A stretch of DNA of 64,000 bases from a virus. Position numbers and translations under genes: made by a program. Below the pieces are notes generated by a model, which did not search any database, was not told where the DNA came from, and saw only the letters and a program-made list of their open reading frames with translations. How positions within the stretch are numbered: position 1 is the stretch's first letter; every line of letters starts with the position of its first letter. The stretch lies in the IMG/VR virus record IMGVR_UViG_3300020421_000007, positions 1-64,000 of that record, one strand, 5' to 3'. Below, one piece after another: positions 1 to 55,251 of this stretch.

Positions 1-171
1 ACATTGGATGGTAATCATCAGAGAATTCTTATGTATCACCCACTGTTATCTGATGGCAATGTTGAATCAAACCGTGGTGCTTATGAGTATGTTGAATGGG
101 ATGAACTAGATGATGATACATTGGATGAGGCAGATAGATGTCACAAACTGTTGTTGAGTGAGGTTAACTAA
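1..171 (+). CDS. 3' end of an unidentified small protein (partial)
   Basis: An open frame runs in from the left edge and ends at TAA 169-171, leaving 56 residues. The tail is acidic (a DELDDD stretch) and ends SEVN. No start is visible and I do not recognise the family. It is on the same strand as the small-gene array that follows, and a hairpin begins at its stop codon. Read-through of the frame without interruption and the match with the next gene's spacing support it as a real gene end. Confidence 0.55.
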   Translation, partial: TLDGNHQRILMYHPLLSDGNVESNRGAYEYVEWDELDDDTLDEADRCHKLLLSEVN

Positions 172-196
172 CTGGTCAGCCGCCCCAACCAGTTGG
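168..196 (+). other. Hairpin overlapping the stop codon of the first gene
   Basis: AACTGGT (170-176) pairs with ACCAGTT (188-194), extended by a U-G and a C-G pair (168-169 with 195-196), with an 11-base loop. No T-run follows, so it is not a standard intrinsic terminator. Similar hairpins recur at most gene ends in this array. Confidence 0.5.
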
Positions 197-236
197 CAAG
201 GTGGCACACAAAATAGGCACAGCACCCCAGATCGTG

Positions 237-242
237 TATTGT
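237..242 (+). promoter_or_regulatory. Possible sigma70-type -10 element (TATTGT)
   Basis: TATTGT lies only 6 bases before ATG 249, so a transcript would start almost at the start codon. The same hexamer precedes the next two genes. No convincing -35 is seen. Confidence 0.35.
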
Positions 243-248
243 GTACAC

Positions 249-431
249 ATGAACAAAACACTCCTCTCCAATCCACAAACCCTGCAGGACCTGCAGGACT
301 TTATGTTCGATACCATGATGCCCGCTGATCTGTGTGTCGATTGGTTCTGTGATCGCTTCAACGTGTCTGCCACTGATGAGGTGATAGATTACGTGGTCGA
401 GGCGCACTTCGGCATGTTCGCTGACCAGTGA
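249..431 (+). CDS. Small acidic protein of unknown function
   Basis: A 60-residue acidic protein. I place the start at ATG 249 (MNKTLLSNPQ) because an upstream alternative at 201 would begin before the probable -10 box at 237-242. It reads DLCVDWFCDRFNVS in the middle and ends FADQ. No known domain is recognised. It belongs to an array of short genes with short spacers, typical of the early or host-takeover regions of T4-like cyanophages. The function is unknown. Confidence 0.6.
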   Translation: MNKTLLSNPQTLQDLQDFMFDTMMPADLCVDWFCDRFNVSATDEVIDYVVEAHFGMFADQ

Positions 432-446
432 GCAAACTGGCACAGC
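420..446 (+). other. Hairpin spanning the stop codon
   Basis: CCAGT (425-429) pairs with ACTGG (436-440), and GCTG (420-423) pairs with CAGC (443-446) across a small internal bulge. The stop TGA 429-431 lies at the edge of the loop. No T-run follows. Confidence 0.4.
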
Positions 447-451
447 ATCGG

Positions 452-479
452 TTGATCTGTGCCCCATCTCCTGTATTGT
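452..479 (+). promoter_or_regulatory. Sigma70-like promoter for the 502 gene
   Basis: TTGATC (452-457) and TATTGT (474-479) are separated by 16 bases, a reasonable match to a host sigma70 promoter. The predicted transcript start is about 486, giving a leader of roughly 16 bases before ATG 502. Confidence 0.5.
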
Positions 480-501
480 TAACTCAAGTTCAAAAAACAC
501 C

Positions 502-738
502 ATGACCGAAAACATCATCGACAGAGACAAACTGCAAGATGCACTCATTGAGTCCATCATCGATGGTATGGATCACAAGTCAATGTATGCATACGTTTAT
601 GATAGTTTGGATGGCAACTTTGACAACTATTCAATGAAAGAACTCATCACAGAAACAGAAGAGTATTACCCTGAATTGTTGACTGATGCCGCTGTTCATA
701 AGGTAACATACAGCGACACGCCACAGGATGCCAGTTGA
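502..738 (+). CDS. Conserved small cyanophage protein, acidic, unknown function
   Basis: A 78-residue acidic protein. It contains DALIESIIDGMDHKSMY followed by a tyrosine- and glutamate-rich stretch ending EEYYPELL. From memory, proteins of this pattern are widespread in T4-like cyanophages and annotated only as hypothetical. The start is ATG 502, 22 bases after a good -10 box. It looks all-helical, with no signal peptide or membrane segment. It may be an early-expressed protein; the function is not known. Confidence 0.75.
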   Translation: MTENIIDRDKLQDALIESIIDGMDHKSMYAYVYDSLDGNFDNYSMKELITETEEYYPELLTDAAVHKVTYSDTPQDAS

Positions 739-757
739 GGTAGTGGCACAAAGGGGG

Positions 758-786
758 TTTACTTCCCCCCTCATCCATTCTATTGT
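758..786 (+). promoter_or_regulatory. Possible sigma70-type promoter for the 816 gene
   Basis: TTTACT (758-763) and TATTGT (781-786) are 17 bases apart. The upstream half overlaps a GGGGG...CCCCC inverted repeat (about 752-770), which could end transcripts of the preceding gene. The TTG at 783 falls inside the -10, which argues against using it as a start codon. Confidence 0.4.
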
Positions 787-815
787 TCATTCAAGTCAAA
801 CAACCAACGACTCTC

Positions 816-1157
816 ATGCGTAAGATCGAACAGCAAATGTGTGCCGCTATCCAGGCAGACAAGAACTGGTCATCAGGCAACACACAAGTTGTTACAAACG
901 ATGGTGTGTCTACAGTGTATCTCCACGGCAACAAGATCGCCATGGTTGATGACACCTCGCTGACAATCTTCGATGGTGGATGGCAGTCAGTCACCACCAA
1001 ATCACGACTCAATGCATTGTGCTCTGAGTTCTGCATTGCTGGTGAGGGTATATTCCAGAAAGACTTTCTGTGGTATGTTCGCAAGTTCACTGGTGCAATC
1101 AATGGCAAGAATGTGTACATGACTGAGGATTTCTGTTCTGGTTATGTGTTCGCCTAA
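816..1157 (+). CDS. Conserved cyanophage hypothetical protein
   Basis: A 113-residue protein starting MRKIEQQM. The ATG at 816 is preferred over the TTG at 783, which overlaps the likely -10 box. Conserved-looking blocks are YLHGNKIA, IFDGGW and TTKSRLNALC. The fold appears mixed alpha/beta, with three cysteines in the C-terminal half. From memory, this family recurs in T4-like cyanophage genomes in tandem arrays of small genes, with no assigned function. Single-domain and soluble, with no signal peptide. Confidence 0.75.
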   Translation: MRKIEQQMCAAIQADKNWSSGNTQVVTNDGVSTVYLHGNKIAMVDDTSLTIFDGGWQSVTTKSRLNALCSEFCIAGEGIFQKDFLWYVRKFTGAINGKNVYMTEDFCSGYVFA

Positions 1158-1186
1158 GGGCGACACTTTTCACACTAAGTAACACA

Positions 1187-1209
1187 AACTGGGCGGCCAC
1201 CGCCTAGTT
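1187..1209 (+). other. Strong GC-rich hairpin downstream of the 816 gene
   Basis: AACTGGGCGG (1187-1196) pairs with CCGCCTAGTT (1200-1209) through ten pairs, one of them G-U, around a CCA loop. It lies 30 bases after the stop codon. No T-run follows. It has the same ACTGG core as other hairpins in the array. Confidence 0.5.
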
Positions 1210-1226
1210 CACCCATACTAGCACCC

Positions 1227-1343
1227 ATGTCTCACTATTCCATGCCTTACCTGCCCACCACTAGGACAGAGGCGAGACTGTCCACATACATAGGCATCGC
1301 CCGCATCTTGGGCTCTATAATCAAATCAATCAAAGGCAATTGA
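1227..1343 (+). CDS. Possible 38-residue micro-protein
   Basis: A short open frame (MSHYSMPYLP...IKSIKGN) fills the otherwise empty 1158-1345 gap and stops 2 bases before the next ATG. A CATACT element just upstream could act as a -10. However, the -10 box of the next gene (TATAAT, 1316-1321) lies inside it, and I do not recognise it in other phages. It may be non-coding leader DNA. Confidence 0.25.
   Translation: MSHYSMPYLPTTRTEARLSTYIGIARILGSIIKSIKGN
1316..1321 (+). promoter_or_regulatory. Consensus -10 box TATAAT
   Basis: A perfect TATAAT, 24 bases before ATG 1346. No clear -35 at 17 bases; TAGGCA lies at 1291-1296. It probably drives the 1346 gene with a leader of about 18 bases. Confidence 0.45.
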
Positions 1344-1345
1344 TC

Positions 1346-1582
1346 ATGTTCGCAGTCCAACCCGCCAACTGGTATCGTTTCGATGAGCATGGCGCAGACT
1401 ATGCCATCAGCATTTCCCACGCCTATCGCATCTGTTCAGCATGGCAGGAGAGCGGAGACGCTGAGGGGGAAGATATGATGATTTGGCGTCTCACCTCTGG
1501 TCATCCTATCAAATGGGTTCGGGTCTACAAGGATGAGAGCGTGGACACTGTGACAGAGCAGGAACTGGCACTGCTTGCCTAG
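1346..1582 (+). CDS. Small protein of unknown function
   Basis: A 78-residue protein starting MFAVQPANWYRFDE. ATG 1346 is chosen over a TTG two codons earlier. Aromatic N-terminal half, with AYRICSAWQ and a later IKWVRVYKDES. It resembles short beta-rich cyanophage hypothetical proteins but carries no motif that allows a function call. It is followed by an 8-bp stop-spanning hairpin and then another small gene after 31 bases. Confidence 0.6.
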   Translation: MFAVQPANWYRFDEHGADYAISISHAYRICSAWQESGDAEGEDMMIWRLTSGHPIKWVRVYKDESVDTVTEQELALLA

Positions 1583-1594
1583 ATAACCAGTTCC
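1561..1594 (+). other. Stop-spanning inverted repeat
   Basis: GGAACTGG (1561-1568) is perfectly complementary to CCAGTTCC (1587-1594). The stop TAG 1580-1582 lies in the 18-base loop. No T-run follows. Confidence 0.5.
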
Positions 1595-1613
1595 GACCCT
1601 GTAGACTAACAGC

Positions 1614-1814
1614 ATGGAAAACAAAACAACCAAACTCGAAACCTCTGCTGATGGCATCTTCATGCACAGCAAGAACCCATCACCAGTCATGCAAGCAGCG
1701 ATGGACAGCATCCGCCGTCAGATGATCGCTGAGACAGCATACCGTCAGCGTGTGCGTCAGGGACTAGAGCCAGCAGGACAGTGGGGGAACTGGTCCATCA
1801 GTGATCGCCACTGA
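1614..1814 (+). CDS. Small basic protein of unknown function
   Basis: A 66-residue protein with MENKTTKLETSADGIFMHS at the N terminus and an arginine-rich helix further on (SIRRQMIAETAYRQRVRQG). A TAGACT element at 1602-1607 could be a -10, which would make the transcript nearly leaderless. No recognised domain. The basic helical part could bind nucleic acid, but that is only a guess from composition. Confidence 0.55.
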   Translation: MENKTTKLETSADGIFMHSKNPSPVMQAAMDSIRRQMIAETAYRQRVRQGLEPAGQWGNWSISDRH

Positions 1815-1815
1815 T
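1797..1815 (+). other. Stop-spanning hairpin
   Basis: ATCAGTG (1797-1803) pairs perfectly with CACTGAT (1809-1815) around a 5-base loop. The stop TGA 1812-1814 is in the 3' arm. No T-run follows. Confidence 0.5.
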
Positions 1816-1827
1816 CACCCCATCGTC

Positions 1828-1833
1828 TACAAT
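1828..1833 (+). promoter_or_regulatory. Possible -10 element TACAAT
   Basis: TACAAT lies 25 bases before ATG 1859, at a spacing similar to the -10 boxes of the 502 and 1346 genes. No clear -35. Confidence 0.35.
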
Positions 1834-1858
1834 ACACACAAGCAAACAAACAAACCAC

Positions 1859-2128
1859 ATGACCGCTTCCACCATGACTGCCGACACCACATACAACGGT
1901 TGGGCAAACTATGAGACCTGGAATGCATCCCTCTGGATTCAGAACGACCGCTTCCTGTACAACACTGCCCAAGCATGTGTGACGTACTGTGAGGCAGGCG
2001 ACACGCCATACGCTTGCTTCGTTCGCTGCATGGATAACTGCGCTCGCACCATGACAGGTGATGACGTGGCATGGACAGATCCTGCCATCGACGCAGACGA
2101 GATGAACGAGATGATGGCAGACCTCTGA
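1859..2128 (+). CDS. NGWxNYETW-motif small protein (DUF7249-like)
   Basis: An 89-residue acidic protein with YNGWANYETWNASLWIQND near residues 11-30 and several cysteines in the middle. The NGW-NYETW signature recurs in many phage proteins annotated as DUF7249; the family name is from memory and its function is unknown. It is the last gene of the array and is followed after 23 bases by a strong terminator. ATG 1859 is used; a second ATG at residue 6 is possible. Confidence 0.7.
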   Translation: MTASTMTADTTYNGWANYETWNASLWIQNDRFLYNTAQACVTYCEAGDTPYACFVRCMDNCARTMTGDDVAWTDPAIDADEMNEMMADL

Positions 2129-2151
2129 GTCTACCACAGCAGAGGGGCAGG

Positions 2152-2176
2152 GGGGCAGTGATATGCCCCTTTTTTA
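2152..2176 (+). terminator. Intrinsic terminator closing the small-gene array
   Basis: GGGGCA (2152-2157) and TGCCCC (2164-2169) form a 6-bp GC-rich stem with a 6-base loop, followed by six T. This is the only canonical terminator in the first 2.2 kb. It separates the array from the late structural module. Confidence 0.85.
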
Positions 2177-2247
2177 TGTGGTCGCGAAGCGCCAAGCGGT
2201 TTGGGACTCCTACCCCTTCCCTAACCTACAAAAGTATCCAGACGAGA

Positions 2248-2255
2248 GATAAATA
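2248..2255 (+). promoter_or_regulatory. T4-type late promoter GATAAATA
   Basis: GATAAATA matches the T4 late promoter core (TATAAATA), which is read by the phage sigma factor gp55. It lies 57 bases before ATG 2312, at the boundary where structural genes begin. The region from 2180 to 2311 holds no other gene. Confidence 0.7.
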
Positions 2256-2311
2256 TTTTTGAAATGGTTTTTTTGAAACCTTGAAAAGGAAAAAAATTTC
2301 CCAGCAAAAAA

Positions 2312-2569
2312 ATGACTGAAAAACCCGAGTACAAAAACTTTGACGACATTGTTAACAACTTCGATGCGTTCTGTGACGAGTTTGAGTCGCGAGCATCTGA
2401 AGCATTCATGAGAGGAGATCAAAACGATGGAAGAGTTACACAAGCAGCAGCAGAGTCTGGAGCAGGCACTCCTGAAGCTGTCCGAGAGGTTGACGAGCCT
2501 GGACCAACGGATTTCGCAGCTGGAGCGACCACAATTGATGTATCGTCGTCCAGCGGAGAAGAACTATGA
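2312..2569 (+). CDS. Short acidic protein, overlapping the next gene
   Basis: An 85-residue frame starting MTEKPEYKNFDDIVNN. It is first after the late promoter. Residues 1-36 look like a genuine acidic protein; beyond that it becomes alanine/glycine-rich, low-complexity sequence lying antiparallel in reading sense to the coiled-coil gene that overlaps it from 2427. The 143-base overlap makes the C-terminal half doubtful. It could be real, or only its N-terminal part may matter. Shine-Dalgarno support is weak. Confidence 0.4.
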   Translation: MTEKPEYKNFDDIVNNFDAFCDEFESRASEAFMRGDQNDGRVTQAAAESGAGTPEAVREVDEPGPTDFAAGATTIDVSSSSGEEL

Positions 2570-2654
2570 AAGTCTCTCAGACACATTAGATTATCTTCAC
2601 AATAATGTGGAAGGAATTAAGGAAGATCTTTTAAAGGTAGCGAGAGCGGTATAG
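2427..2654 (+). CDS. Coiled-coil small protein, probably structural
   Basis: A 75-residue protein beginning MEELHKQQQSLEQALLKLSE. Residues 1-35 have a leucine heptad pattern typical of a coiled coil, followed by a polar linker and a second helix ending LLKVARAV. GGAG sits about 8 bases before ATG 2427, and the frame closes upstream at a TGA near 2409, which fixes the start. It ends 1 base before the next gene. Placed in the late baseplate module; the exact role is unknown. Confidence 0.6.
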   Translation: MEELHKQQQSLEQALLKLSERLTSLDQRISQLERPQLMYRRPAEKNYESLSDTLDYLHNNVEGIKEDLLKVARAV

Positions 2655-2655
2655 G

Positions 2656-3588
2656 ATGGCAACGCTATTAGATGATAGGTTAACTGTAGGTATCTGGCCA
2701 TTACCAGGGACTGCGAAACGTGCCGACCTGTTATCGGGTGTTGTCACGCCAGGGGTTGGTAGTTTCGAGTTAAGACCTCTAGCGTATGAGAATATGGCAG
2801 AGGCAGTGGAGAATGGCGACGTATCTTCTGTGGATGATTATATCTCACCATATCAGGTATTCTCGTTAACAGTCACAGCAATCCCCACACTGCCCGATGA
2901 GATCATCTTAAACGTATCGTTCGACCCAATACCTCCTGTACCTGCTTTCACACCCTTCAAGGCGATTATAGAGGAACCTAACCCAGTTACATTAGTTAGT
3001 AGGACTGGTGCAGAAAAACCACAAGAGATTTTACCCAGTCCTAATTGGAATCCACCCCTGGTCAATGAAGAGTTCATTCAGACTTTAGGAGGGGTGACGA
3101 CTGCCACGATTGGGGGATACTATACTGAGAAGGCATTTTATGATCGTGAATGGGTTCTGAAGTTTCCTGATGTGATCGCAAGGATCAGCGGCGCAGGCGT
3201 GAGATATTTGAAGTATGAAAAGATCCCTCAGGGCGTACCATTCGATCCGTTGTTATTTGATACCGCACCGATTGCTCCGAGTAGTATTACGCCTGCTACG
3301 TGGTATTCACTCACCAAAGCGGATGCCGAGATCTTAGATGCGCCTGAGATGCAGAGGTTTCTTACAAGATCATCTGGTATTGTATCGTATAAGGCATCAG
3401 AGATCAGGAAGTTGCGCTTCTTCTATATTATTACAATCACTTCAAAGTTACCAGGGACGTTGATTCCGATAAAGACCACTATTCCCGCGTTTATGACGGT
3501 ACAGAACAATAGTAGTTGGGCACAGAAGAGATTACTCTATGCCCTAAATACGCCGAAAGCGCCGAGACCATTATTACTTGGAGTATAA
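2656..3588 (+). CDS. Virion/baseplate-region protein of unknown function
   Basis: A 310-residue, proline- and beta-rich protein starting MATLLDDRLTVGIWPLPGT. No motif allows assignment to a T4 protein. Its position directly before a PAAR spike-tip gene and upstream of gp25 and gp6 suggests a baseplate or hub component. The stop overlaps the next start (TAATG). There is no signal peptide and few cysteines. Alternatives include a cyanophage-specific hub accessory protein. A structure-based comparison with T4 gp27, gp48 and gp54 would be informative. Confidence 0.6.
   Translation: MATLLDDRLTVGIWPLPGTAKRADLLSGVVTPGVGSFELRPLAYENMAEAVENGDVSSVDDYISPYQVFSLTVTAIPTLPDEIILNVSFDPIPPVPAFTPFKAIIEEPNPVTLVSRTGAEKPQEILPSPNWNPPLVNEEFIQTLGGVTTATIGGYYTEKAFYDREWVLKFPDVIARISGAGVRYLKYEKIPQGVPFDPLLFDTAPIAPSSITPATWYSLTKADAEILDAPEMQRFLTRSSGIVSYKASEIRKLRFFYIITITSKLPGTLIPIKTTIPAFMTVQNNSSWAQKRLLYALNTPKAPRPLLLGV
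3544..3550 (+). promoter_or_regulatory. Possible late promoter CTAAATA
   Basis: CTAAATA lies inside the end of the preceding gene and 38 bases before the PAAR start at 3588. That spacing matches other late promoters in the window. Confidence 0.4.
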
Positions 3589-3956
3589 TGTTAAGTACAA
3601 CACCCGCGTTATCAATGGTTTTAGACATGACTACAGGTCATGGTCCATGGTCTCCTGTTGGATTTCTACCACCCTCCCCTACTCCTCCTAGTGGTGCGAG
3701 TTTGAATGTTATCATTAATGGTCGTAATGTACATAAGGTAGGTGATACAACATTACCACACTTTGCGATACTTCCTGTACCACCTGATCTACACTCTGAT
3801 ACAATCTCCACAGGGTCTCCAACAGTCATGGTTAATGGTACTCCTATGGCAGTGATCGGAAGTTTGTTAGGATCGCCTGTGGGACCTGCTGGTATCGTTT
3901 CAGGATTTGGAGCATTAACTGTAGTGGTTGACAGCAGACCCCTAGAGAAGGTATAA
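3588..3956 (+). CDS. 5.4: PAAR-domain spike tip protein (T4 gp5.4-like)
   Basis: A 122-residue protein rich in Gly, Pro and Val with the PAAR pattern: DMTTGHGPW near the N terminus, VIINGRNVHKVGDTTLPH, and then SPTVMVNGTPMAVIGS. PAAR proteins fold as a sharp beta cone, often with a bound metal, and cap the central spike of contractile tails; in T4 this is gp5.4. Histidines in TGHG and TLPH are candidate metal ligands. The start at 3588 overlaps the previous stop; an ATG eight codons later (3612) is an alternative. Likely a component of the tail spike that pierces the host envelope. Confidence 0.85.
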   Translation: MLSTTPALSMVLDMTTGHGPWSPVGFLPPSPTPPSGASLNVIINGRNVHKVGDTTLPHFAILPVPPDLHSDTISTGSPTVMVNGTPMAVIGSLLGSPVGPAGIVSGFGALTVVVDSRPLEKV

Positions 3957-3980
3957 TACAAGAGTCAATCGAACAAAATT

Positions 3981-4127
3981 ATGGCACGAAGCAAAGTTGG
4001 TCTTAGTGGCGGTCTCATGATCGAGTCGAAACCAAAAAAGACTCGTCAGGGATCAGGACAGCACACGAAGTACGCTGCTACATCACGTAACAACAAGAAA
4101 AAGCGTTATCGTGGACAGGGACGATGA
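3981..4127 (+). CDS. Tiny highly basic protein
   Basis: A 48-residue protein starting MARSKVGLSGGLMIESKPKK and ending KKKRYRGQGR, with more than a quarter Lys and Arg. It fits exactly between the PAAR gene and the next gene, whose ATG overlaps its stop (ATGA). From memory, near-identical proteins occur at the same locus in other T4-like cyanophages. The basic tail suggests DNA or RNA contact or a scaffold role. Not characterised. Confidence 0.75.
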   Translation: MARSKVGLSGGLMIESKPKKTRQGSGQHTKYAATSRNNKKKRYRGQGR

Positions 4128-4813
4128 ATTTAATTTGCAATCTTCCCGCTGAGAAAGTCTGGGTACGTAAAGAATACTTACGAGATCATCAAGATGGTCA
4201 TGGGGAGTTTGTTGAGGGCGTTTGGGTATCTGCTAAAAGCATACCTGGACGCGCTTTTTATTTTGAGACATACTTACCCACGTATGGAGCAATGTACGAC
4301 AAACTTCCCATTAGTGCGTTTGTACGATCCCCTGAAACCCCAGTCATAGACATGGATTTGGCGAATCTACAATTCTGGAATTGCATGGACTATGGAGTCA
4401 TGGCAATCAACAAAGGATTCATTGCTCAAATGGAAGTGGAGATCTTTACTCGTGACCATGGGTTACAGAAAGGAAAATACTTGTTTACATTGGATAACTA
4501 TCATGCGAACCCTGATGTGATAGATAATAATGTGAGCGAAACTCCTCAGGAGCATAAATCGCACAATTGTATTGCGTTGAACAATGGTCAATACGCTTTG
4601 TATCCTAATAATAGGATGCGACTGTATGACCTCTCCTTGACTCCAGAACAACCTACATTCCCTGACTTTAAAGTATCTACCATAGAATACGAAGTCGAGG
4701 GTGGAACCGATTGGGGACGCCTTGGAGACACTGATAATTATTTTTGGGAAACAAATGCTGAACGAAAACAACGGACGGAGACCACAGATGGACAAACGAG
4801 TGGACAAGAGTGA
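4124..4813 (+). CDS. Conserved cyanophage protein upstream of gp25
   Basis: A 229-residue protein starting MNLICNLPAEKVWVRKEYL. The N-terminal 150 residues look like a compact beta-rich domain (GRAFYFETYLPTYG, YDKLPISAFV). The last 25 residues are polar and probably disordered (WETNAERKQRTETT). It is syntenic in T4-like cyanophages between the PAAR gene and gp25 as I remember. The function is unknown; a late-stage or packaging-related role is as likely as a baseplate one. The start overlaps the preceding stop by 4 bases. Confidence 0.7.
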   Translation: MNLICNLPAEKVWVRKEYLRDHQDGHGEFVEGVWVSAKSIPGRAFYFETYLPTYGAMYDKLPISAFVRSPETPVIDMDLANLQFWNCMDYGVMAINKGFIAQMEVEIFTRDHGLQKGKYLFTLDNYHANPDVIDNNVSETPQEHKSHNCIALNNGQYALYPNNRMRLYDLSLTPEQPTFPDFKVSTIEYEVEGGTDWGRLGDTDNYFWETNAERKQRTETTDGQTSGQE

Positions 4814-43075: not shown

Positions 43076-45076
43076 ATGGCGAATTCTGATAAGGACATCC
43101 TTATAACGCCCAATAGAGGCACAGCGAATATACCAGAAATTAGTTTTGTCGGACAAGATAATGCACCGATTAAACTTCGCGTACTTGATGACAACACGTT
43201 ATCCTTTGAAGGAAACTCGGGACAACTATTTTCTATTGATGATAATTTAACTACTGGAACAATATTTGCTGTTTCCGATATTAGTGGCGTACCATCAATT
43301 CAAGTTGATGCTAATGGAAGAATCGACATTGCCAGATATGGTGGATCATTAAATATCGGCAATAATAATAACACCACAGACAGAGCACTATGTGTTACTG
43401 GTGAGATAGCACTAACAACTATAAATTCAACACCAGCTGGTTTATGTTTCTGGGAAAGTGGAGATAATACTGGTACAGCACCAGCACAGATTTATTGGGA
43501 TGGACCTGGATATGCTGATAACAACAACTATCTTTCTCTCAGAACAAATAGTGCGGACAGATTAACAGTAACATATGCTGGTGCTGTTGGATTGGGCACC
43601 AACGCACCAAATAAAAAATTCCATCTTTATGGTGGTCATGGTGATACTTCCATGAGATTGACACTGCCATCAGGAAACAATGGTGCAGGAACTGGTGATA
43701 TTCATATGCAACTATGGGTATCAGAACCAGGAAGGACCTGGGATGGTGGTGGCATTGGTATGAATGTTACCAATTATTATACAACGTCATATCCATCATC
43801 TGCTAATGATCAATCAAATAATTATTTCCCACAACTGAATAGTGCCATCGGTCAAGCATATTTGAGATTTTTCCCTAATGGAGGAAGAATCGAATTCTCT
43901 ACGATGGACAATGATGGTACATCATATAGAGAACAAATCCATATGCTTAAAGGTGGCATTGGTATCAATACCACCACAGATGTCGGAAGCACTTACAAAT
44001 TAGTTGTTGGTGGTGATATTAATTTTACTGGTGAATTATATCAAAATGGAACAATTTTTGAAACTCTACCTCCACAAAGCGCAGCTACAATTGGCGCAGC
44101 ATTAAGATCTGATGGCACCAATGCTTTCTGGGATATTGGTGATCCATGGGGTGGTAACGGTACTGATGATCTTCCACACGCAGTAGAAGACAGATATAGA
44201 GTTGGATTCCAAATTAGCAGAGGATATGCTATGGCGGGATATAAGAACAGCACATCTTATAAGAATGTATGTTCTCTCGACATGGCAAATAATACCATCA
44301 CAAATCATGGAGACATTTTAACAAATGGTCAAGGTTATTGTGCGGGAGCACAAAACTTAAGCATGTACGCATACGTTATGATTGCGGTCAATGGTGTTGG
44401 TGGTACTGGATCTACTGTATCTAAGATCAATATGAATACATCATCAAACGCAAATACAACATCTATTAATAATAATAGATCTGCTACAAGTTTGATGAGG
44501 AGAGACTTTAAGTATGCGTATGTTTATGGTGGAGGAGACAGTAGACCAGATAGATTTAATTTAACTAATGACACTTCTGCTTTATCTCCAAATGGTAACC
44601 CAGCAGGTGGTGAAAATAATCCAGCAGGTGGTTTTGGTGCTACCTATGGATGGACTAGAAGAAATGGAGCATACTTATTCAGTTGGGCTGCTGAAACTTA
44701 TACTGCTTGGCCAAGTTCGCCTGGAACCGATGGATCGAATAAAACCTTAAATGCCAGACATGGATTTAATTATTGGAATACTGCTGGTGGATATAGAACT
44801 TCATCAAACCTTTCTAAGAGAAGCGCCCTTACAGGATCTGAGGCAACTCAGGTTGGTAAATTTGAATGTGGAGAAGAAACTTTCTTTACTGGTATGAACC
44901 GTGGATACATGTGTGGTATGTATGATGGTGCTCAAAAGAACACAGGAGCAGTTCTAAATTATTCTGCTGAAACATTTACTGCTGATAGTAATATAGATAG
45001 ACAAGGACCACCTGGATCTGCTTCTGGAGCTGGTGCTGAGTTTGGTACAGTTCTAACAGGTTACGACGGAGTATAA
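43076..45076 (+). CDS. Tail fibre protein
   Basis: A 666-residue protein starting MANSDKDILITPNRGT. Residues 1-330 are fibre-like beta modules (TGTIFAVSDISGVPSIQVD, GAVGLGTNAPNKKFHLYGG, YKLVVGGDINFTGELYQNG), a pattern common in marine phage fibres. The C-terminal half (about 360-666) is Gly-, Asn- and Tyr-rich with repeated YVYGGGD-, GYMCGMYDG- and GYKNST-type blocks, suggesting a blade or beta-barrel receptor domain. It has its own late promoter and is followed after 2 bases by a possible assembly gene. Confidence 0.75.
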   Translation: MANSDKDILITPNRGTANIPEISFVGQDNAPIKLRVLDDNTLSFEGNSGQLFSIDDNLTTGTIFAVSDISGVPSIQVDANGRIDIARYGGSLNIGNNNNTTDRALCVTGEIALTTINSTPAGLCFWESGDNTGTAPAQIYWDGPGYADNNNYLSLRTNSADRLTVTYAGAVGLGTNAPNKKFHLYGGHGDTSMRLTLPSGNNGAGTGDIHMQLWVSEPGRTWDGGGIGMNVTNYYTTSYPSSANDQSNNYFPQLNSAIGQAYLRFFPNGGRIEFSTMDNDGTSYREQIHMLKGGIGINTTTDVGSTYKLVVGGDINFTGELYQNGTIFETLPPQSAATIGAALRSDGTNAFWDIGDPWGGNGTDDLPHAVEDRYRVGFQISRGYAMAGYKNSTSYKNVCSLDMANNTITNHGDILTNGQGYCAGAQNLSMYAYVMIAVNGVGGTGSTVSKINMNTSSNANTTSINNNRSATSLMRRDFKYAYVYGGGDSRPDRFNLTNDTSALSPNGNPAGGENNPAGGFGATYGWTRRNGAYLFSWAAETYTAWPSSPGTDGSNKTLNARHGFNYWNTAGGYRTSSNLSKRSALTGSEATQVGKFECGEETFFTGMNRGYMCGMYDGAQKNTGAVLNYSAETFTADSNIDRQGPPGSASGAGAEFGTVLTGYDGV

Positions 45077-45078
45077 AA

Positions 45079-45831
45079 ATGAGAAGTTATTATCTTACAA
45101 ATTCCAGAGCAGTATCTAAACTGTTTTCTTTTAAAACGCATGGAGAAATCCTTAATTGGAGATTCTTTTCTATTGATTATCTCGACAAAGATAATTTAAA
45201 GGAACTAGCTCCACGATGTATTGAAGTGGAAAAGGATGTTGCTATATTTGGCATTAAATCTTGGGGAGAAACTAGAGATGAAATTTCTGTATATAACACA
45301 GAATGTGAAGTAGATAATGAATTTGAAGAGTTTGATGTTGTAGCAGCAAATCCTAAAGATACTCAAGGAAAAATTAAAATTCCTATGAGTGATAAAAGAA
45401 AGGGTGTTGTTAGAAAAGCAATGAAATTAATTGCTAAAGTTATTATTGAAGATGAATATGATGTTAAATATCGTAGTTACTTGGCAAAAACTTCCGCCTT
45501 AGAAAGAGACACATGGAAATATCAGGTAGAAGATACTGATTTTAGAAACTCTCTTGCTGATATTAAAGGACGCGAAAGAGAAGAATTTGGAAACATTGTT
45601 TTTAGTAGTGGAAACTCCCATGAGGACTATATAAAAACATTATACATAGAGTGTCAGTCATTAAAACAAAAATTTTATGATGCTGTGACTATTGAAGATC
45701 TAAGTGTTTTATATGAAGATCATTTCAATCTTCCCATGCAGTCCCATCTTGCTATTAAGTTGGGTAGAGAAATTGTTAATGCTGATAAACCAAACGAAAG
45801 ACTAGATGTTGGAGTTGGTTTAAATTTTTAA
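45079..45831 (+). CDS. Uncharacterised protein, possibly fibre assembly
   Basis: A 250-residue, charged, mostly helical protein. The segment KTSALERDTWKYQVEDTDFR weakly resembles the TWxxQ helix of DUF4376-type tail-fibre assembly proteins. The rest (YYLTNSRAVSKLFSF, KLIAKVIIEDEYDVKYRS) is unfamiliar. It follows a fibre gene by 2 bases, which fits an assembly chaperone, but the resemblance is weak. No catalytic motif seen. Confidence 0.5.
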   Translation: MRSYYLTNSRAVSKLFSFKTHGEILNWRFFSIDYLDKDNLKELAPRCIEVEKDVAIFGIKSWGETRDEISVYNTECEVDNEFEEFDVVAANPKDTQGKIKIPMSDKRKGVVRKAMKLIAKVIIEDEYDVKYRSYLAKTSALERDTWKYQVEDTDFRNSLADIKGREREEFGNIVFSSGNSHEDYIKTLYIECQSLKQKFYDAVTIEDLSVLYEDHFNLPMQSHLAIKLGREIVNADKPNERLDVGVGLNF

Positions 45832-45849: not shown

Positions 45850-46650
45850 ATGGCAATTGATGCAAATGAATTAGATATTGATACTATTGTAGATATCGCT
45901 AAAAAATGGGCAAGTGGTATGTCACCTCAGCAGTGTGACATGTATGTAATTCATTCTCAAGTTACAAAAGACAGGCAGGTTAAACAATGTCTGATGGAAA
46001 TTGAGAATAGAAATCACAATTTACAAAAACTTGATATTGAAAAGAGGAAGCACGAAGTAAATCTTAGAAAGGTTACTGCTTTATATGAGGCAGAAGAAGA
46101 TCCTGATGAAAAGGAACTTTTTCAAATTGAACTCGATAGTATGGCTTTAGATTTTGATGTGTTTAAACGCAGAAAAATTACACAAGAAAAAGAAATTCAA
46201 AGTTTCTTTCAGTGGTTGCTTGATGAAGGGTATACTGCTGAAGAATTAGAAAAAAGATTGGAGTATGATCCCGAAGAAGAAAGAAAGTATTGGATTTCTA
46301 GAATGGGTAAACAAGCAGCTCTTGATGTTGTATTCCAAGGAAGAATTGGAACAGGCAATTTAGATTCAATTGCCATGATGAAAGAGACAGATCAGCAAGC
46401 AATTTTAGAAATTGCTATGCAATATTCTGCATTGTATAATGTAAGTATGAAAAAAATTCAAGAGAGACTTCTTCCATACATTCAACAAATGGAAGAAAGT
46501 TCCACTGGAGCATTACCAACATTCCATGGCATCGATGATAATCTTGAAATTGGTTTATTGAGTGAATTAAAAACTATTAAAGGTGAATTGAATGCCGCCA
46601 AACCATCCACACCAAGTCTTCAGCTTACCTATAAACCCAAAGCTTCCTGA
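45850..46650 (+). CDS. Coiled-coil protein of unknown function
   Basis: A 266-residue, highly charged, helical protein. Residues about 45-120 have heptad-like spacing (ENRNHNLQKLDIEKRKHEV). A second block, YWISRMGKQAALDVVFQGR, is likely conserved. It could be a scaffold, a fibre-assembly chaperone or an adaptor for the enzymes that follow; nothing in the sequence decides. Its last 59 bases overlap the start of the next gene, which suggests translational coupling. Confidence 0.55.
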   Translation: MAIDANELDIDTIVDIAKKWASGMSPQQCDMYVIHSQVTKDRQVKQCLMEIENRNHNLQKLDIEKRKHEVNLRKVTALYEAEEDPDEKELFQIELDSMALDFDVFKRRKITQEKEIQSFFQWLLDEGYTAEELEKRLEYDPEEERKYWISRMGKQAALDVVFQGRIGTGNLDSIAMMKETDQQAILEIAMQYSALYNVSMKKIQERLLPYIQQMEESSTGALPTFHGIDDNLEIGLLSELKTIKGELNAAKPSTPSLQLTYKPKAS

Positions 46651-48295
46651 AGAATTTGTAGAAAATATTTTTATTCCCTTTCTAATTGAGTATAGGGAAT
46701 ATATTTTTGATTTATATTTTACCTGTAGAATGCCTCCTTTTACACAGGACGCTATGGGAGATCTTTTTGGTAATCCAAAAGATACAACTTTTAGTGCCTT
46801 GTATATTTCAAACAAGACAGGTATTCCTTTGTCTGCTACATTTAATAATATCTACATTAGACCAGATCAAGAAACTTTAGATTTGTTTATTAAAAATTTT
46901 AAGTATGTTTATGATAAGGGTGTGAGAATTGCTACTATTCCACACACCTCTTGGTTGATGACTGGACAAATTCAAAAAGCATTTCCAGATCTTTTTATTA
47001 AAAATACTATTTTGCGAGAAGTTACAAGACCAAATGAAATTGTATCTCTAGCAAAAGCAGGTTTTCACTATATCAATTTAGATAGAGATTTGATGCGTGA
47101 TAGAGATCAACTTGTAGCAATTAAAGAAGCAAAAGACTACTGTGAATCTATTGGCAAACCAGTAAAGATTTCTTTGCTTGCCAATGAAAATTGCTGGGGT
47201 GGGTGTCCCATTATGCCAGAACATTATCATTATAACAACACCAGAAGTGGAGACAATCCAGAATATTTTGCTGATGCTATTAGTAGAATCTCATGTTCTT
47301 CTTGGGACATTCACGATTCTTCATCTCCCCTAAAAGCAGCAATTCTACCTCCATGGAAAGAAGACTGGGAGGAATTTATTGATTTGGGTATTGATGTTTT
47401 TAAAATGCATGGTAGGGAGTCTGCCACAAGACTCAAAGAAAGCATGGACATCATTGAGAACTGGGCAGATGAAAAAGAATATTTGTTTCCAAATTTTGAT
47501 GAGTTTATTCATGACATCCACATCGAAAATAAACCTATCAATATATGGAGAGAAAAAATTAAATCATGTAAATTTGATTGTTGGAAATGTAATTACTGCG
47601 AATCTGTAATTGAATCTAGAAAGAAAAAATATCACAGAGACAATCATAAGTATGTCTATCATGTTTTAGATTCTTTAGATAAATCAGGAAGATACGAATC
47701 TAAATTTGATGCTGAGTCTTACGATATCGAAGGATTAACTTCTGATAGAGTTAGGCATTTTTTAAATAACCTTTGCTCTATAGAAGAAGCAAAGTATTTG
47801 GAGGTGGGTTCATATGCTGGCAGCACTTTTTTTGCTGCTACTATGAACAATGATATTCCATCATTTGCTGTCGATAATTATATTTGTAATGTATCTCCAG
47901 CAAGATTAGATGTTAAATGGAATGGATACTCTGCTCCAAAAAAGAAGTTCTTAAACAACAGAAAAAAATATAAGTCGGGAAAACTTATCGATAAACATAT
48001 TCAAGATGTTAACTTGTTTGATCTAAAAAACACTAAAGTTAATGTTGTATTTTATGACGGAAGTCATGAATATAAAGATCAACAGAAAGCATTAGAAACA
48101 GTTTTACCACTAGTTGAAGATACATTTATTTTAGTTATCGATGACGCAAATTTCAAAGATGTGGTAGAATCTGCTAAGCAGTTTATATCTGATAATAAAT
48201 TGACCTCTTTATATGAAAACCAACTTCTCACTACTAAGTATGAAGATTCTACCAGTTGGTGGAACGGTTTGTTTGTGGCGGTTTTAAAAAAATGA
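46592..48295 (+). CDS. U32-peptidase-like barrel fused to a SAM-dependent methyltransferase
   Basis: A 567-residue fusion. Residues 1-320 look like a TIM barrel of the U32 type: repeated beta/alpha units (GVRIATIPHTSWL, GFHYINLDRD) and LGIDVFKMHGRES, which resembles the U32 LGVDSFKIEGR block. Cysteines occur in ENCWGGCPIMPEH and in CKFDCWKCNYC (about 326-336), suitable for an Fe-S cluster. Residues 370-567 are a class I methyltransferase of the Methyltransf_24 kind: YLEVGSYAGSTF (motif I, about 402), VFYDGSHEYKDQ and FILVIDDAN. Known U32 proteins take part in oxygen-independent hydroxylations of ubiquinone, tRNA or rRNA; the substrate here is unknown. The start at ATG 46592 overlaps the preceding gene by 59 bases. 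The U32 call is moderate, the methyltransferase call good. Confidence 0.7.
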   Translation: MPPNHPHQVFSLPINPKLPEEFVENIFIPFLIEYREYIFDLYFTCRMPPFTQDAMGDLFGNPKDTTFSALYISNKTGIPLSATFNNIYIRPDQETLDLFIKNFKYVYDKGVRIATIPHTSWLMTGQIQKAFPDLFIKNTILREVTRPNEIVSLAKAGFHYINLDRDLMRDRDQLVAIKEAKDYCESIGKPVKISLLANENCWGGCPIMPEHYHYNNTRSGDNPEYFADAISRISCSSWDIHDSSSPLKAAILPPWKEDWEEFIDLGIDVFKMHGRESATRLKESMDIIENWADEKEYLFPNFDEFIHDIHIENKPINIWREKIKSCKFDCWKCNYCESVIESRKKKYHRDNHKYVYHVLDSLDKSGRYESKFDAESYDIEGLTSDRVRHFLNNLCSIEEAKYLEVGSYAGSTFFAATMNNDIPSFAVDNYICNVSPARLDVKWNGYSAPKKKFLNNRKKYKSGKLIDKHIQDVNLFDLKNTKVNVVFYDGSHEYKDQQKALETVLPLVEDTFILVIDDANFKDVVESAKQFISDNKLTSLYENQLLTTKYEDSTSWWNGLFVAVLKK

Positions 48296-48942
48296 AACTA
48301 TACGATCTTTTTCCTAATCCAATTTTTGGAATAGAATATCCGCATCATAAAAAATTGAAAGAAATAATTTTCAATGTGATGGAAGAAAACAAAGATAACT
48401 TTGAGGTCAATGGACAGTCTTCTAATCTACAACATCTTAATAACAAATTAAGTGAATCTATTTTACACGAAGAACCATTTGAAAGTTTTAGAGAATGGGT
48501 AGAAGAGTCATGTTCGGATTATGTAAGTGATTGTCTTGGATATAATTTGCCAGACAAAATGATGGTTACTGACAGTTGGTTAAATAAATGTGACAAGGGT
48601 GGATCTCAACATCCACACTATCATTCAAATGCATACATTTCTGGAACTTATTATGTAAACTTTGAAGAAGGTCATTCTCCTCTTATGTTTAATAAAAGAT
48701 CAGCATTACTTTTTCCAAATCATCCGACGATTGTTCTGGCAGAAAATGATGATTTTATCACTAAGTATAATACTGACTCTGCTGTATATCCAGAAGAGGG
48801 AGAACTATATTTGTGGCAGTCTCAAATGACACATAGTGTGCCTGAGAATGGAAAAGATAATCGTGTAAGTCTTTCTATGAATTTTATGCCAAATGTTGTA
48901 AGTAATACAAGATATGGTTTTAGAGTGGAGTATGCGAAGTGA
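48292..48942 (+). CDS. 2-oxoglutarate/Fe(II)-dependent oxygenase
   Basis: A 216-residue protein of the putative 2OG-Fe(II) oxygenase kind (2OG-FeII_Oxy_5). The signature HPHYHSNAYISGTYYVNF provides the first metal ligands, and WQSQMTHSVPENGKDNRVSL provides the distal His and the Arg that binds 2-oxoglutarate. These enzymes hydroxylate or otherwise oxidise a substrate using O2. The start at ATG 48292 overlaps the previous stop; a longer start at 48256 overlaps more. Such oxygenases are common in cyanophages next to structural genes. The substrate is unknown. Confidence 0.85.
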   Translation: MKLYDLFPNPIFGIEYPHHKKLKEIIFNVMEENKDNFEVNGQSSNLQHLNNKLSESILHEEPFESFREWVEESCSDYVSDCLGYNLPDKMMVTDSWLNKCDKGGSQHPHYHSNAYISGTYYVNFEEGHSPLMFNKRSALLFPNHPTIVLAENDDFITKYNTDSAVYPEEGELYLWQSQMTHSVPENGKDNRVSLSMNFMPNVVSNTRYGFRVEYAK

Positions 48943-49724
48943 TTGACTACAATGATATCGTAGAGAGATTCCCAGAAAATAAATGGGATATTGGATTGCT
49001 TAAGGGGACAGAATACAAAAAAGTTTTGAACTCACCTGTAAAAGCAGCGTGTCATTTTAAAGGTGAGATGTTGACCAATCGTTTACAAGCACCTTACCAA
49101 TCAGATAACACTTTAGTCTTCGCTAGATTATCAGAACATGCTGCCGATTATTCTCTCTATGAAGAAGCGGCAAGTTATCTTTCAGATTACATTGAACAAG
49201 GAAAATGTGTTCAAGTATATGTAAATTTTAAAGAAGCGGCAATACAATCTGGACTTGGTGTTAGAGCTAAAAACTCTTTGATATACAATAAAAAATTTGG
49301 ATTTCAATGTAAGTTATGTGCATTTACATTTTTAGATGATCTAGCAAATGCCCCAGAACCACAAATAAACAAAGGACAATTAGATCTTTGTGAAGGGTGT
49401 GATGACTGTATCAAACACTGTCCAGCAAATGCTATCCATGAAGATTTTATTGATGGTAATGCTTGCGATACTTTTGTTGGAGTTGGAAATAGTTCAGATC
49501 AAATGTCAATCAAATGGTTTTGGTATGAGTTAGTTAAACCAAATATTCCTAAAGAAGTTGTTGAGTCTTGGAATACCTTGGAAGATTTTAAAAATATTGT
49601 TTGGGATAATGGGTATGAGATGACTCCAAATGGATTAATGAAAGATGGAGAAGTAATTCCTATGCCACTCTGTAGAATGTGTCAACAACAACCAAGATGT
49701 AGTAAAATACCTGTATTATTATGA
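48939..49724 (+). CDS. QueG-like iron-sulphur reductase (4Fe-4S ferredoxin type)
   Basis: A 261-residue protein starting at GTG 48939 (GTGA overlap with the previous stop). It contains GLGVRAKNSLI (about 108), like the GxGxxxKN segment of epoxyqueuosine reductase QueG, followed by a classic CEGCDDCIKHCP cluster motif (about 151-162) and a later CRMCQQQPRC group near the C terminus. QueG has two 4Fe-4S clusters and binds cobalamin; this protein is about 120 residues shorter and its second cluster looks degenerate. It may be an electron donor or a reductase for the neighbouring oxidative enzymes. True tRNA queuosine function is not implied. Confidence 0.7.
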   Translation: MIDYNDIVERFPENKWDIGLLKGTEYKKVLNSPVKAACHFKGEMLTNRLQAPYQSDNTLVFARLSEHAADYSLYEEAASYLSDYIEQGKCVQVYVNFKEAAIQSGLGVRAKNSLIYNKKFGFQCKLCAFTFLDDLANAPEPQINKGQLDLCEGCDDCIKHCPANAIHEDFIDGNACDTFVGVGNSSDQMSIKWFWYELVKPNIPKEVVESWNTLEDFKNIVWDNGYEMTPNGLMKDGEVIPMPLCRMCQQQPRCSKIPVLL

Positions 49725-50341
49725 TGTTAAATATTGGACCATGGCACGTCAATCCATGTTTTTCTTTACCAGTTACATCAGCTGACATAGATTCTAATGT
49801 AAGTTTTCTTCTAAAAACTATGTCTAGAAAAATGGAATGGATTGAGGACAATCCAGATACAGGAATTAATGGATTTTATTCTAAAAATAGAAACGTATTA
49901 GATTCTGATTTGTCAATGAAAGAAGGATTAACTTCTATCTGTAAAGATTATATCGTAAATGCTTTATCATATAACACAGATATTAAAATCACAACTTCTT
50001 GGTTTACAAAAACTTTAAAAGGTGGGCAGTGTGTGGAACATGCTCACTGCAACTCTTGGTTTAGTGCAGTTGTATATTTTGGGGACTATGATGAAAAATC
50101 AGCACCACTAGTATTTTCAGTTGATCCTCCACAAATATTAGTACCAACATCTATGCCAAATTTTTTAAACTCATACAACTTGACAATTGAGTCAGAAAAG
50201 AATAAAATAATTATATTTCCCAGTCGTTTAAGGCACAAAGTTATTACACACAATTCAAATACTCCTAGGTATTCTCTTTCTTTTAACATTATGCCTGTTG
50301 GAACAGTTGGGGAAGGAGACTCCAGTTACACATATAAATAA
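49721..50341 (+). CDS. Second 2-oxoglutarate/Fe(II)-dependent oxygenase
   Basis: A 206-residue protein related in pattern to the 48292 oxygenase: EHAHCNSWFSAVVYFGDY gives the proximal ligands, and FPSRLRHKVITHNSNTPRYS gives the distal His and the 2-oxoglutarate Arg. The ATGA start overlaps the preceding stop; an alternative ATG is one codon later. It closes the enzyme cluster. The late promoter of the next unit lies within its last codons. The substrate is unknown. Confidence 0.82.
   Translation: MMLNIGPWHVNPCFSLPVTSADIDSNVSFLLKTMSRKMEWIEDNPDTGINGFYSKNRNVLDSDLSMKEGLTSICKDYIVNALSYNTDIKITTSWFTKTLKGGQCVEHAHCNSWFSAVVYFGDYDEKSAPLVFSVDPPQILVPTSMPNFLNSYNLTIESEKNKIIIFPSRLRHKVITHNSNTPRYSLSFNIMPVGTVGEGDSSYTYK
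50333..50340 (+). promoter_or_regulatory. Late promoter TATAAATA
   Basis: A perfect late promoter overlapping the end of the oxygenase gene, 27 bases before ATG 50367. Confidence 0.7.
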
Positions 50342-54425: not shown

Positions 54426-54748
54426 TGAAATTTCTATTTGCGTTCTTAGCAACGCTATTTCTTGCTGCCCCCGCATGGGCAGTCGATGTAACGATGGGTT
54501 CAAATGGCAATCTAGTATTTGAACCAAACGACATTACAATTTCAGCAGGAGATACTGTTCATTTTGTGAACGGTATGCTACCTCCACATAACATTATTGT
54601 TGAAGGTCGTGCTGACCTCAGCAGAGAATCATTGATGTTTAATCCTGGTGAATCACAAGACATTAAGTTTGCTGATGCTGGAGACTACGATTTCTTCTGT
54701 GGTCCTCACCAAGGTGCTGGAATGGTTGGTACAATTCATGTAGAGTAA
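54425..54748 (+). CDS. petE: Plastocyanin
   Basis: A 107-residue blue copper protein. Residues 1-19 form a signal peptide (MKFLFAFLATLFLAAPAWA) for export to the thylakoid lumen. Copper ligands are visible: His in PPHNI (about residue 55), and Cys, His and Met in CGPHQGAGM near the C terminus. Plastocyanin carries electrons from cytochrome b6f to photosystem I; phage copies are thought to keep photosynthetic electron flow going during infection. It is 1 base overlapped with the genes on both sides, in an operon with PTOX. Confidence 0.95.
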   Translation: MKFLFAFLATLFLAAPAWAVDVTMGSNGNLVFEPNDITISAGDTVHFVNGMLPPHNIIVEGRADLSRESLMFNPGESQDIKFADAGDYDFFCGPHQGAGMVGTIHVE

Positions 54749-55251
54749 TGAAAAAATTCAACAGTTTAGTTTTAGATTTCACTGTTGCAATACTAGACTA
54801 CCTCTATAGAGGTAGACATTTCCAACGTTTCTGGGTGCTTGAGGAGATTGCTCGGGCACCTTATTTTGCATTTTTAAGCGTATTGCATTTTCGTGAAAGC
54901 ATGGGACTTCGTGGTCCTGAGCATTTATATCTAATGAAAACACACTTCGAGCAGTCAGTCAATGAGACAGAACATCTGGAGTACATGGAATCTAGGGGCG
55001 GCAATGCTTATTGGGTGGATCGCTTTGTCGCCAGACACCTCGTACTTATCTACTATTGGAGCAACGTGGTTTATTACTGGGTGGCTCCTCGCCTTGCTTA
55101 CCATTTGTCCTATGAAGTAGAAATCCACGCGGCAGAAACATATGCCAAATATCTAACTTATGAAGATTGGAATGATAAAAAAATTTGGGAGATTATGAAT
55201 GACGAGATCCAACACTTCCAAGAATTACAGGAAGCAATGGAGATGATCTAA
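54748..55251 (+). CDS. ptox: Plastoquinol terminal oxidase (PTOX)
   Basis: A 167-residue member of the alternative oxidase family. The di-iron ligands are visible: Glu in LEEIARAPYF, Glu and His in NETEHLEYM, Glu in YEVEIHAAETY, and Glu/His in DEIQHFQEL. The hydrophobic stretch LVLIYYWSNVVYYWVAP suits interfacial membrane binding. PTOX oxidises plastoquinol with O2 and relieves over-reduction while sparing photosystem I. Together with petE it rewires photosynthetic electron flow. It overlaps its neighbours by 1 base on each side. Confidence 0.93.
   Translation: MKKFNSLVLDFTVAILDYLYRGRHFQRFWVLEEIARAPYFAFLSVLHFRESMGLRGPEHLYLMKTHFEQSVNETEHLEYMESRGGNAYWVDRFVARHLVLIYYWSNVVYYWVAPRLAYHLSYEVEIHAAETYAKYLTYEDWNDKKIWEIMNDEIQHFQELQEAMEMI

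Follow-up and report, generated by a model that had tools for sequence, protein, structure and literature searches.

A single 567-residue chain encoded by a virus combines a divergent U32-type barrel, carrying seven invariant cysteines, with a class I methyltransferase of the metal-dependent O-methyltransferase type. The window analyzed here, a stretch of 64,000 nt, is part of an 83-kb viral record; genes for tail-fibre and neck proteins, for plastocyanin and of the alternative-oxidase type identify the virus as a T4-like cyanophage. By analogy with characterized U32 proteins, we tentatively favor a bifunctional enzyme in which an Fe-S-dependent, O2-independent hydroxylation would be followed by O-methylation. 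Both halves are of known kinds, but the open-access literature searched describes neither the U32 branch with seven cysteines nor its fusion in one chain to an O-methyltransferase. The same open-access search retrieved no earlier description of U32 in combination with a cyanophage or phage methyltransferase.

The fused gene and its two halves

The fused gene comprises the following elements:

46592..48295, plus strand: fused enzyme GC354/phrog_1458, 567 aa, U32-type barrel and class I methyltransferase (open reading frame; phrog_1458 match, E 9e-227)
46592..47629, plus strand: seven-Cys U32-type (beta/alpha) barrel with C-terminal cysteine tail, residues 1-346 (AF2 model, 5d88 match, hhalign)
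47192..47296, plus strand: C201-x3-C205 and C235, residues 201-235, in the aligned region of the canonical essential C170/C177; invariant
47387..47419, plus strand: U32 motif GIDVFKMHGRE, residues 266-276, aligned to canonical K-I-E-G-R
47567..47599, plus strand: tail motif C-x3-C-x2-C-x2-C (CKFDCWKCNYC), residues 326-336, invariant in 47/47 phage-type barrels; its four cysteines in 15/15 cellular stand-alone relatives
47630..48292, plus strand: class I SAM-dependent methyltransferase (Methyltransf_24), metal-dependent O-methyltransferase type, residues 347-567 (PF13578, fold)

The frame opens with an ATG preceded by AAGGTG, and its 5' end overlaps the upstream GC353 homologue by 59 nt; the opposite strand shows many stops in the frame read. 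Since a single unbroken frame spans both domains in full-length homologues, a frameshift or an assembly artefact as the origin of the fusion is ruled out. A previous sequence-only reading had described a 567-residue chain joining a barrel to a class I methyltransferase. The open reading frame agrees with this description exactly, all the strings that it quoted are found in the translation, and both halves are supported by homology and fold.

The C-terminal half almost certainly has a methyltransferase fold. Residues 347-567 match PF13578 with 32.7 bits against a cut-off of 26.3 (E 1.5e-7), and 27 of 30 family members match the same model, while one member matches PF05711 (TylF). The SAM-site motifs (Y-L-E-x-G...G, D428 and Y-D) are intact and invariant, as is an acidic D-D-x-N resembling the metal site of the O-methyltransferase group. 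A fold search left catechol, sugar and tRNA O-methyltransferases tied at Z 15-17, and the sole PDB match below E 0.001 by sequence profile was TrmR/YrrM (5zw3), which is a weak one (E 2e-4, domain E 0.0067).

The full-length fold search was dominated by methyltransferases and did not touch the barrel, which was therefore folded separately. Modelled alone from 47 sequences (AF2; pLDDT 89.4, pTM 0.89), the barrel has as its best structural neighbor the U32 protein Mk0906 (5d88; Z 16.5, rmsd 3.2, 227 residues), the next fold, that of MTHFR-type barrels, scoring 3.3 Z lower (Z 13.2). Foldseek also related the model to U32 (E 2.7e-6), and in predicted viral structures the first match with a name, leaving aside the close family, was another phage 'Peptidase', of Escherichia phage OLB35. 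Searches of Pfam, NCBIfam and PDB sequences with the barrel gave no match; at the gathering cut-off of PF01136 the window protein was not matched, and E 0.003 was the best value reached, among the 3 of 47 family members that gave any signal.

Direct alignment of the phage barrel profile with canonical U32 was weak (hhalign, Prob 11), so that the U32 link depends on intermediates and on the fold. Such intermediates occur in Desulfobacterota, the phylum of the stand-alone barrel L085: a search of 297 genomes with the barrel profile found relatives in 16 further genomes (E 8e-22 to 7e-6), of which L089, L090, L091, L094 and L097 exceed the PF01136 cut-off, reaching up to 51.7 bits. By hhalign, the phage barrels align with the bacterial seven-Cys relatives over 306 columns, tail included (Prob 99.7, E 2.6e-26). 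The bacterial relatives align in turn with canonical U32 proteins of the TrhP type (Prob 98.2, E 2.8e-14), the canonical set in this comparison including one ORF, L099:2-1093, that is a genomic neighbor of a seven-Cys profile match. Since the window protein stays under the Pfam cut-off while bacterial intermediates pass it, we file it as a divergent U32 relative and not as a Pfam-defined member, and we judge homology of the N-terminal half to U32, as a divergent branch, to be very probable. The earlier label 'U32-like' for this half is borne out by the 5d88 fold match and the profile chain to PF01136, so that its second refuting case, a different, non-U32 fold for this half, did not come true.

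Seven cysteines shared with stand-alone barrels

Exactly seven cysteines, namely C201, C205, C235, C326, C330, C333, and C336, are invariant in all 40 phage proteins compared at less than 90% identity. All seven are kept in 47 of 47 phage-type barrels, among them the stand-alone L084, L175 and L085, and in 15 of 15 bacterial relatives, a tally that omits L096, for which the script chose a wrong ORF; in the bacterial proteins the tail reads CX3-4CX2CX2C. The set is unvarying across 62 diverse barrels, and the invariance of junction and barrel cysteines in the 40 phage proteins is far beyond chance. Non-conservation of the junction cysteines, on which the sequence-only reading would have fallen, did not come true: all four are invariant (40/40). 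K271, H273, G274 and R275 are also invariant in the phage-type barrels, and K271 and R275 are kept in the bacterial relatives.

In the register of the profile alignment, C201/C205 coincide with C170/C177 of TrhP and C169/C176 of RlhA, an essential cysteine pair whose mutation leaves either protein without function (PMC6599085). UbiU and UbiV each hold a [4Fe-4S] cluster with four cysteine ligands, and most U32 families retain a CX6CX15CX3/4C motif (PMC6747719), unlike the phage protein with its spacing CX3C...C plus CX3CX2CX2C. Judging from sequence, CX3CX2CX2C is a metal- or Fe-S-type motif, and the seven cysteines would allow room for one four-Cys cluster and one three-Cys cluster with an open site. 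We consider it likely that the fusion protein binds Fe-S. The phage protein has in common with TrhP, RlhA and UbiU-UbiV (PF01136) the barrel fold, the K-x-x-G-R motif, C201/C205 at the essential pair and a probable Fe-S cluster, whereas it lies below the Pfam threshold, carries CX3C in place of CX6C, has the extra C-terminal CX3CX2CX2C and the fused methyltransferase, and showed no Peptidase_U32_C domain.

The junction had also been called a cysteine knot, a label that is inapplicable since no disulfide pattern is shown. Its likeness to radical SAM spacing is correct insofar as a CX3CX2C is present after the barrel, but the comparison misleads: the N-terminal CX3CX2C is absent, for up to residue 180 the window protein has a single cysteine, C45, which is kept in 31/40 proteins. 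A radical SAM protein was rejected on this account. ThiC and the SPASM proteins are examples of radical SAM enzymes that do have cysteine motifs C-terminal of the barrel. More specifically, the sequence-only reading proposed that a new Fe-S site had been made at the junction to couple both domains. The four cysteines are indeed invariant and placed between the domains; however, the same CX3-4CX2CX2C tail ends the stand-alone L084, L175 and L085 and many Desulfobacterota proteins. Since these proteins carry no methyltransferase, the tail belongs to the U32 subfamily and not to the fusion: it is the C-terminal end of this subfamily and no invention of the junction. Coupling is refuted as the origin of the motif, and we regard a site newly made for it as highly improbable.

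Stand-alone barrels without methyltransferase were found in phage (L084, L175), in a Desulfocapsa MAG (L085) and in many Desulfobacterota genomes. The MAG contigs labelled Dehalococcoidia (L082), Euryarchaeota (L083) and Cloacimonadota (L084) are phage sequence, and L084 shares 87% identity with a viral contig of 224 kb; a search of 124 genomes from the L084 phylum brought up no further relative. In a tree of the 62 barrels, the 15 bacterial proteins form one group (100/100) and the stand-alone phage-type L084, L175 and L085 another (100/100), adjoining the fused L209. One fusion, followed by at most one loss, is enough to account for this tree, which is limited by its long branches. The bacterial stand-alone proteins (L085, L088-L103 except L096) have in common with the phage enzyme the barrel family, the seven cysteines and the accompanying N198, H211, D258, K271 and R275. 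They differ by the lack of a methyltransferase and by their neighbors, which include molybdenum hydroxylase and secretion genes. The reading given below offers a testable function also for this seven-cysteine U32 branch, which is widespread.

Some arrangements around bacterial relatives can be noted alongside. Among Desulfobacterota genomes, L099 and L101 have a seven-cysteine U32 gene adjoining a canonical one of the TrhP type, and L234/L236 carry a tandem pair of seven-cysteine genes, recalling the UbiU-UbiV and TrhP1-TrhP2 pairs. L215, L216 and L217, which have the best bacterial scores against the phage barrel profile, adjoin genes for what appear, on reading their sequences, to be large subunits of molybdenum hydroxylases (xanthine/aldehyde dehydrogenase type).

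Distribution and gene cassette

By tblastn, homologues of the fusion protein occur in 123 of 50,697 phage records, all of them cyanophages, counting matches that cover at least 80% of the 567-aa query. All are below 60% identity (51-58% among the 60 matches listed), and the independent lineages are far fewer than 123, because many records are near-identical S-RIM2 or S-RIM12 isolates. The neck protein gp13 matches 463 records that bear the name Synechococcus phage, cyanophage or Prochlorococcus phage, so that about a quarter of such phage records carry the fusion gene. IMG/VR holds at least 80 loci with a homologue of the fusion (44-100% identity), and a barrel-only query finds at least 588 relatives. 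The family is recorded as 'T4-LIKE GC: 354' in annotations and as phrog_1458, both denoting the same family at full length, with the label 'hypothetical' and no function given. Neither entry holds domain content; both domains and the cysteine set were assigned in the present analysis, which offers a testable function for this very common marine phage 'hypothetical'.

The fusion gene follows three genes on the same strand:

43076..45076, plus strand: GC351 homologue, 666 aa, annotated 'sericin 1 precursor-like' and presumed to be a tail fibre or adhesin, with a conserved C-terminal half
45079..45831, plus strand: GC352 homologue (phrog_1604), 250 aa, no assigned function (phrog match, annotated cyanophages, locus survey)
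45850..46650, plus strand: GC353 homologue (phrog_1409), 266 aa, no assigned function; present in as many phage records as GC354 (123)

This arrangement is fixed. The organism and host tallies of the GC353 records equal those of GC354, identity of the two sets being seen among the matches listed. Among these matches, GC353 mostly lies directly upstream of GC354, and about 6 kb off in the S-RIM14/S-ShM2 group; in S-ShM2, the same distance separates GC354 from the whole of GC351-353. In the IMG/VR loci with room, GC353 is found within 1.5 kb upstream of the fusion gene in 136/151, a GC352 homologue in 109/135 and a GC351 homologue in 125/135. The cassette is, by association, a set of a tail protein, two proteins without assigned function and a candidate modifying enzyme.

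Candidate activities, substrates and downstream genes

In the two-step reading that we tentatively prefer, the seven-Cys barrel would bind one, and probably two, Fe-S clusters, with C201/C205/C235 in the barrel and C326/C330/C333/C336 in the tail, and would hydroxylate a substrate without O2, like TrhP, RlhA and UbiU-UbiV. The metal-type class I methyltransferase would then use SAM to methylate the new hydroxyl, as TrmR does after TrhP1/TrhP2, and the fusion would pass the hydroxylated intermediate between the two sites. Cluster binding, both activities and their order are what we infer here. U32 action followed by O-methylation has an experimental precedent in trans: in B. subtilis, TrmR methylates ho5U34 of tRNA directly after two U32 proteins, TrhP1 and TrhP2, whose genes share its operon (PMC6599085). 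This system (yrrO/yrrN/yrrM; mo5U34 in tRNA) likewise pairs U32 proteins with an O-methyltransferase of broadly this type, but it consists of three separate proteins and involves another U32 subfamily, whereas the phage has one chain. Several points count against the mechanism: the direct profile comparison with canonical U32 is weak, the cysteine spacing departs from the canonical one, the essential Glu of TrhP (E162) is not obviously retained in the phage barrel, the relationship to TrmR is weak while many O-methyltransferases suit the fold just as well, and the window holds no tRNA gene. Coupling of the two steps, if real, would make the protein a compact model of U32 chemistry. Cyanophages would then also be producing an Fe-S enzyme, perhaps sensitive to O2, within an O2-producing host, which would be surprising in itself.

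As for the substrate, we judge the tail protein GC351 and RNA to be about equally likely, with a small molecule close behind. The fixed cassette makes GC351 a candidate: within the two-step reading, the enzyme might hydroxylate and methylate, or otherwise modify, a residue of GC351, with GC352 and GC353 as helpers. This choice is possible though rather unlikely. The matching record tallies of GC353 and GC354 and the frequency of GC353 and GC351 at the loci argue for it, as does the L085 stretch 1-4352, in which the stand-alone barrel gene is flanked by genes for an RTX repeat protein and for an ABC exporter of type I secretion. On the other hand, a shared cassette need not consist of enzyme and substrate, and tail regions gather other genes; GC354 is distant from GC351-353 in S-ShM2; the stand-alone L084 adjoins dCTP deaminase and DNA ligase genes, and no GC351-353 were found near L084 and L175. 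Furthermore, we know of no U32 protein that hydroxylates a protein side chain. A bolder version, in which the first single-chain 'hydroxylate then O-methylate' enzyme, with a seven-cysteine two-cluster U32 site, would add a methoxylated residue to the GC351 adhesin and thereby tune host recognition, is improbable.

Modification of RNA, by which one chain would produce a 5-methoxy-pyrimidine (e.g. mo5U34), or a similar methoxy base, in tRNA or rRNA of the host or the phage, is similarly doubtful. Among solved structures, the methyltransferase half comes nearest to TrmR, and TrhP and RlhA, U32 proteins with known RNA roles, are required for pyrimidine C5-hydroxylation (PMC6599085). However, that relationship is weak, no tRNA genes were found in the 64,000-nt window, the gene lies in a tail cassette away from translation genes, and U32 proteins act on small molecules too, as in the case of UbiU-UbiV (PMC6747719). 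A small molecule or surface sugar could be the target, the Methyltransf_24/TylF-like half methylating a sugar or an aromatic and the barrel giving a hydroxyl or a redox step. Sugar and catechol O-methyltransferases are among the fold neighbors at tied Z, the single TylF match points the same way, and bacterial seven-Cys relatives adjoin the apparent molybdenum hydroxylase genes; the cassette, however, is devoid of sugar or quinone pathway genes, and we hold this target to be unlikely as well. What speaks for the barrel as a protease trimming tail proteins is the family name, carried over in U32 'peptidase' labels. The U32 members that have been characterized serve in hydroxylation and carry Fe-S clusters (PMC6747719, PMC6599085), and the cysteines and the methyltransferase partner suit hydroxylation better; a peptidase appears scarcely credible.

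Together with the genes directly downstream, the fusion gene forms a series of Fe-S, methyltransferase and oxygenase genes. Downstream of it lies a gene for a 261-aa ferredoxin-like protein (48939-49724, plus strand) with CEGCDDCIKHCP, of the Fer4_16 double-cluster type though below cut-off, flanked by two differing PF13759 2OG-Fe(II) oxygenase genes (48301-48942 and 49721-50341, plus strand). The Fer4_16 domain type is known from epoxyqueuosine reductase. The ferredoxin-like protein had no match in the 50,697 phage records and its gene is confined to close relatives (17 of 161 IMG/VR loci with room downstream), so that it was rejected as a general electron donor for the fusion enzyme. Elsewhere in the window, genes for a plastocyanin (PF00127; 54425-54748, plus strand) and an alternative-oxidase-family protein (PF01786, plastoquinol-oxidase-like; 54748-55251, plus strand) stand in tandem with a 1-base overlap.
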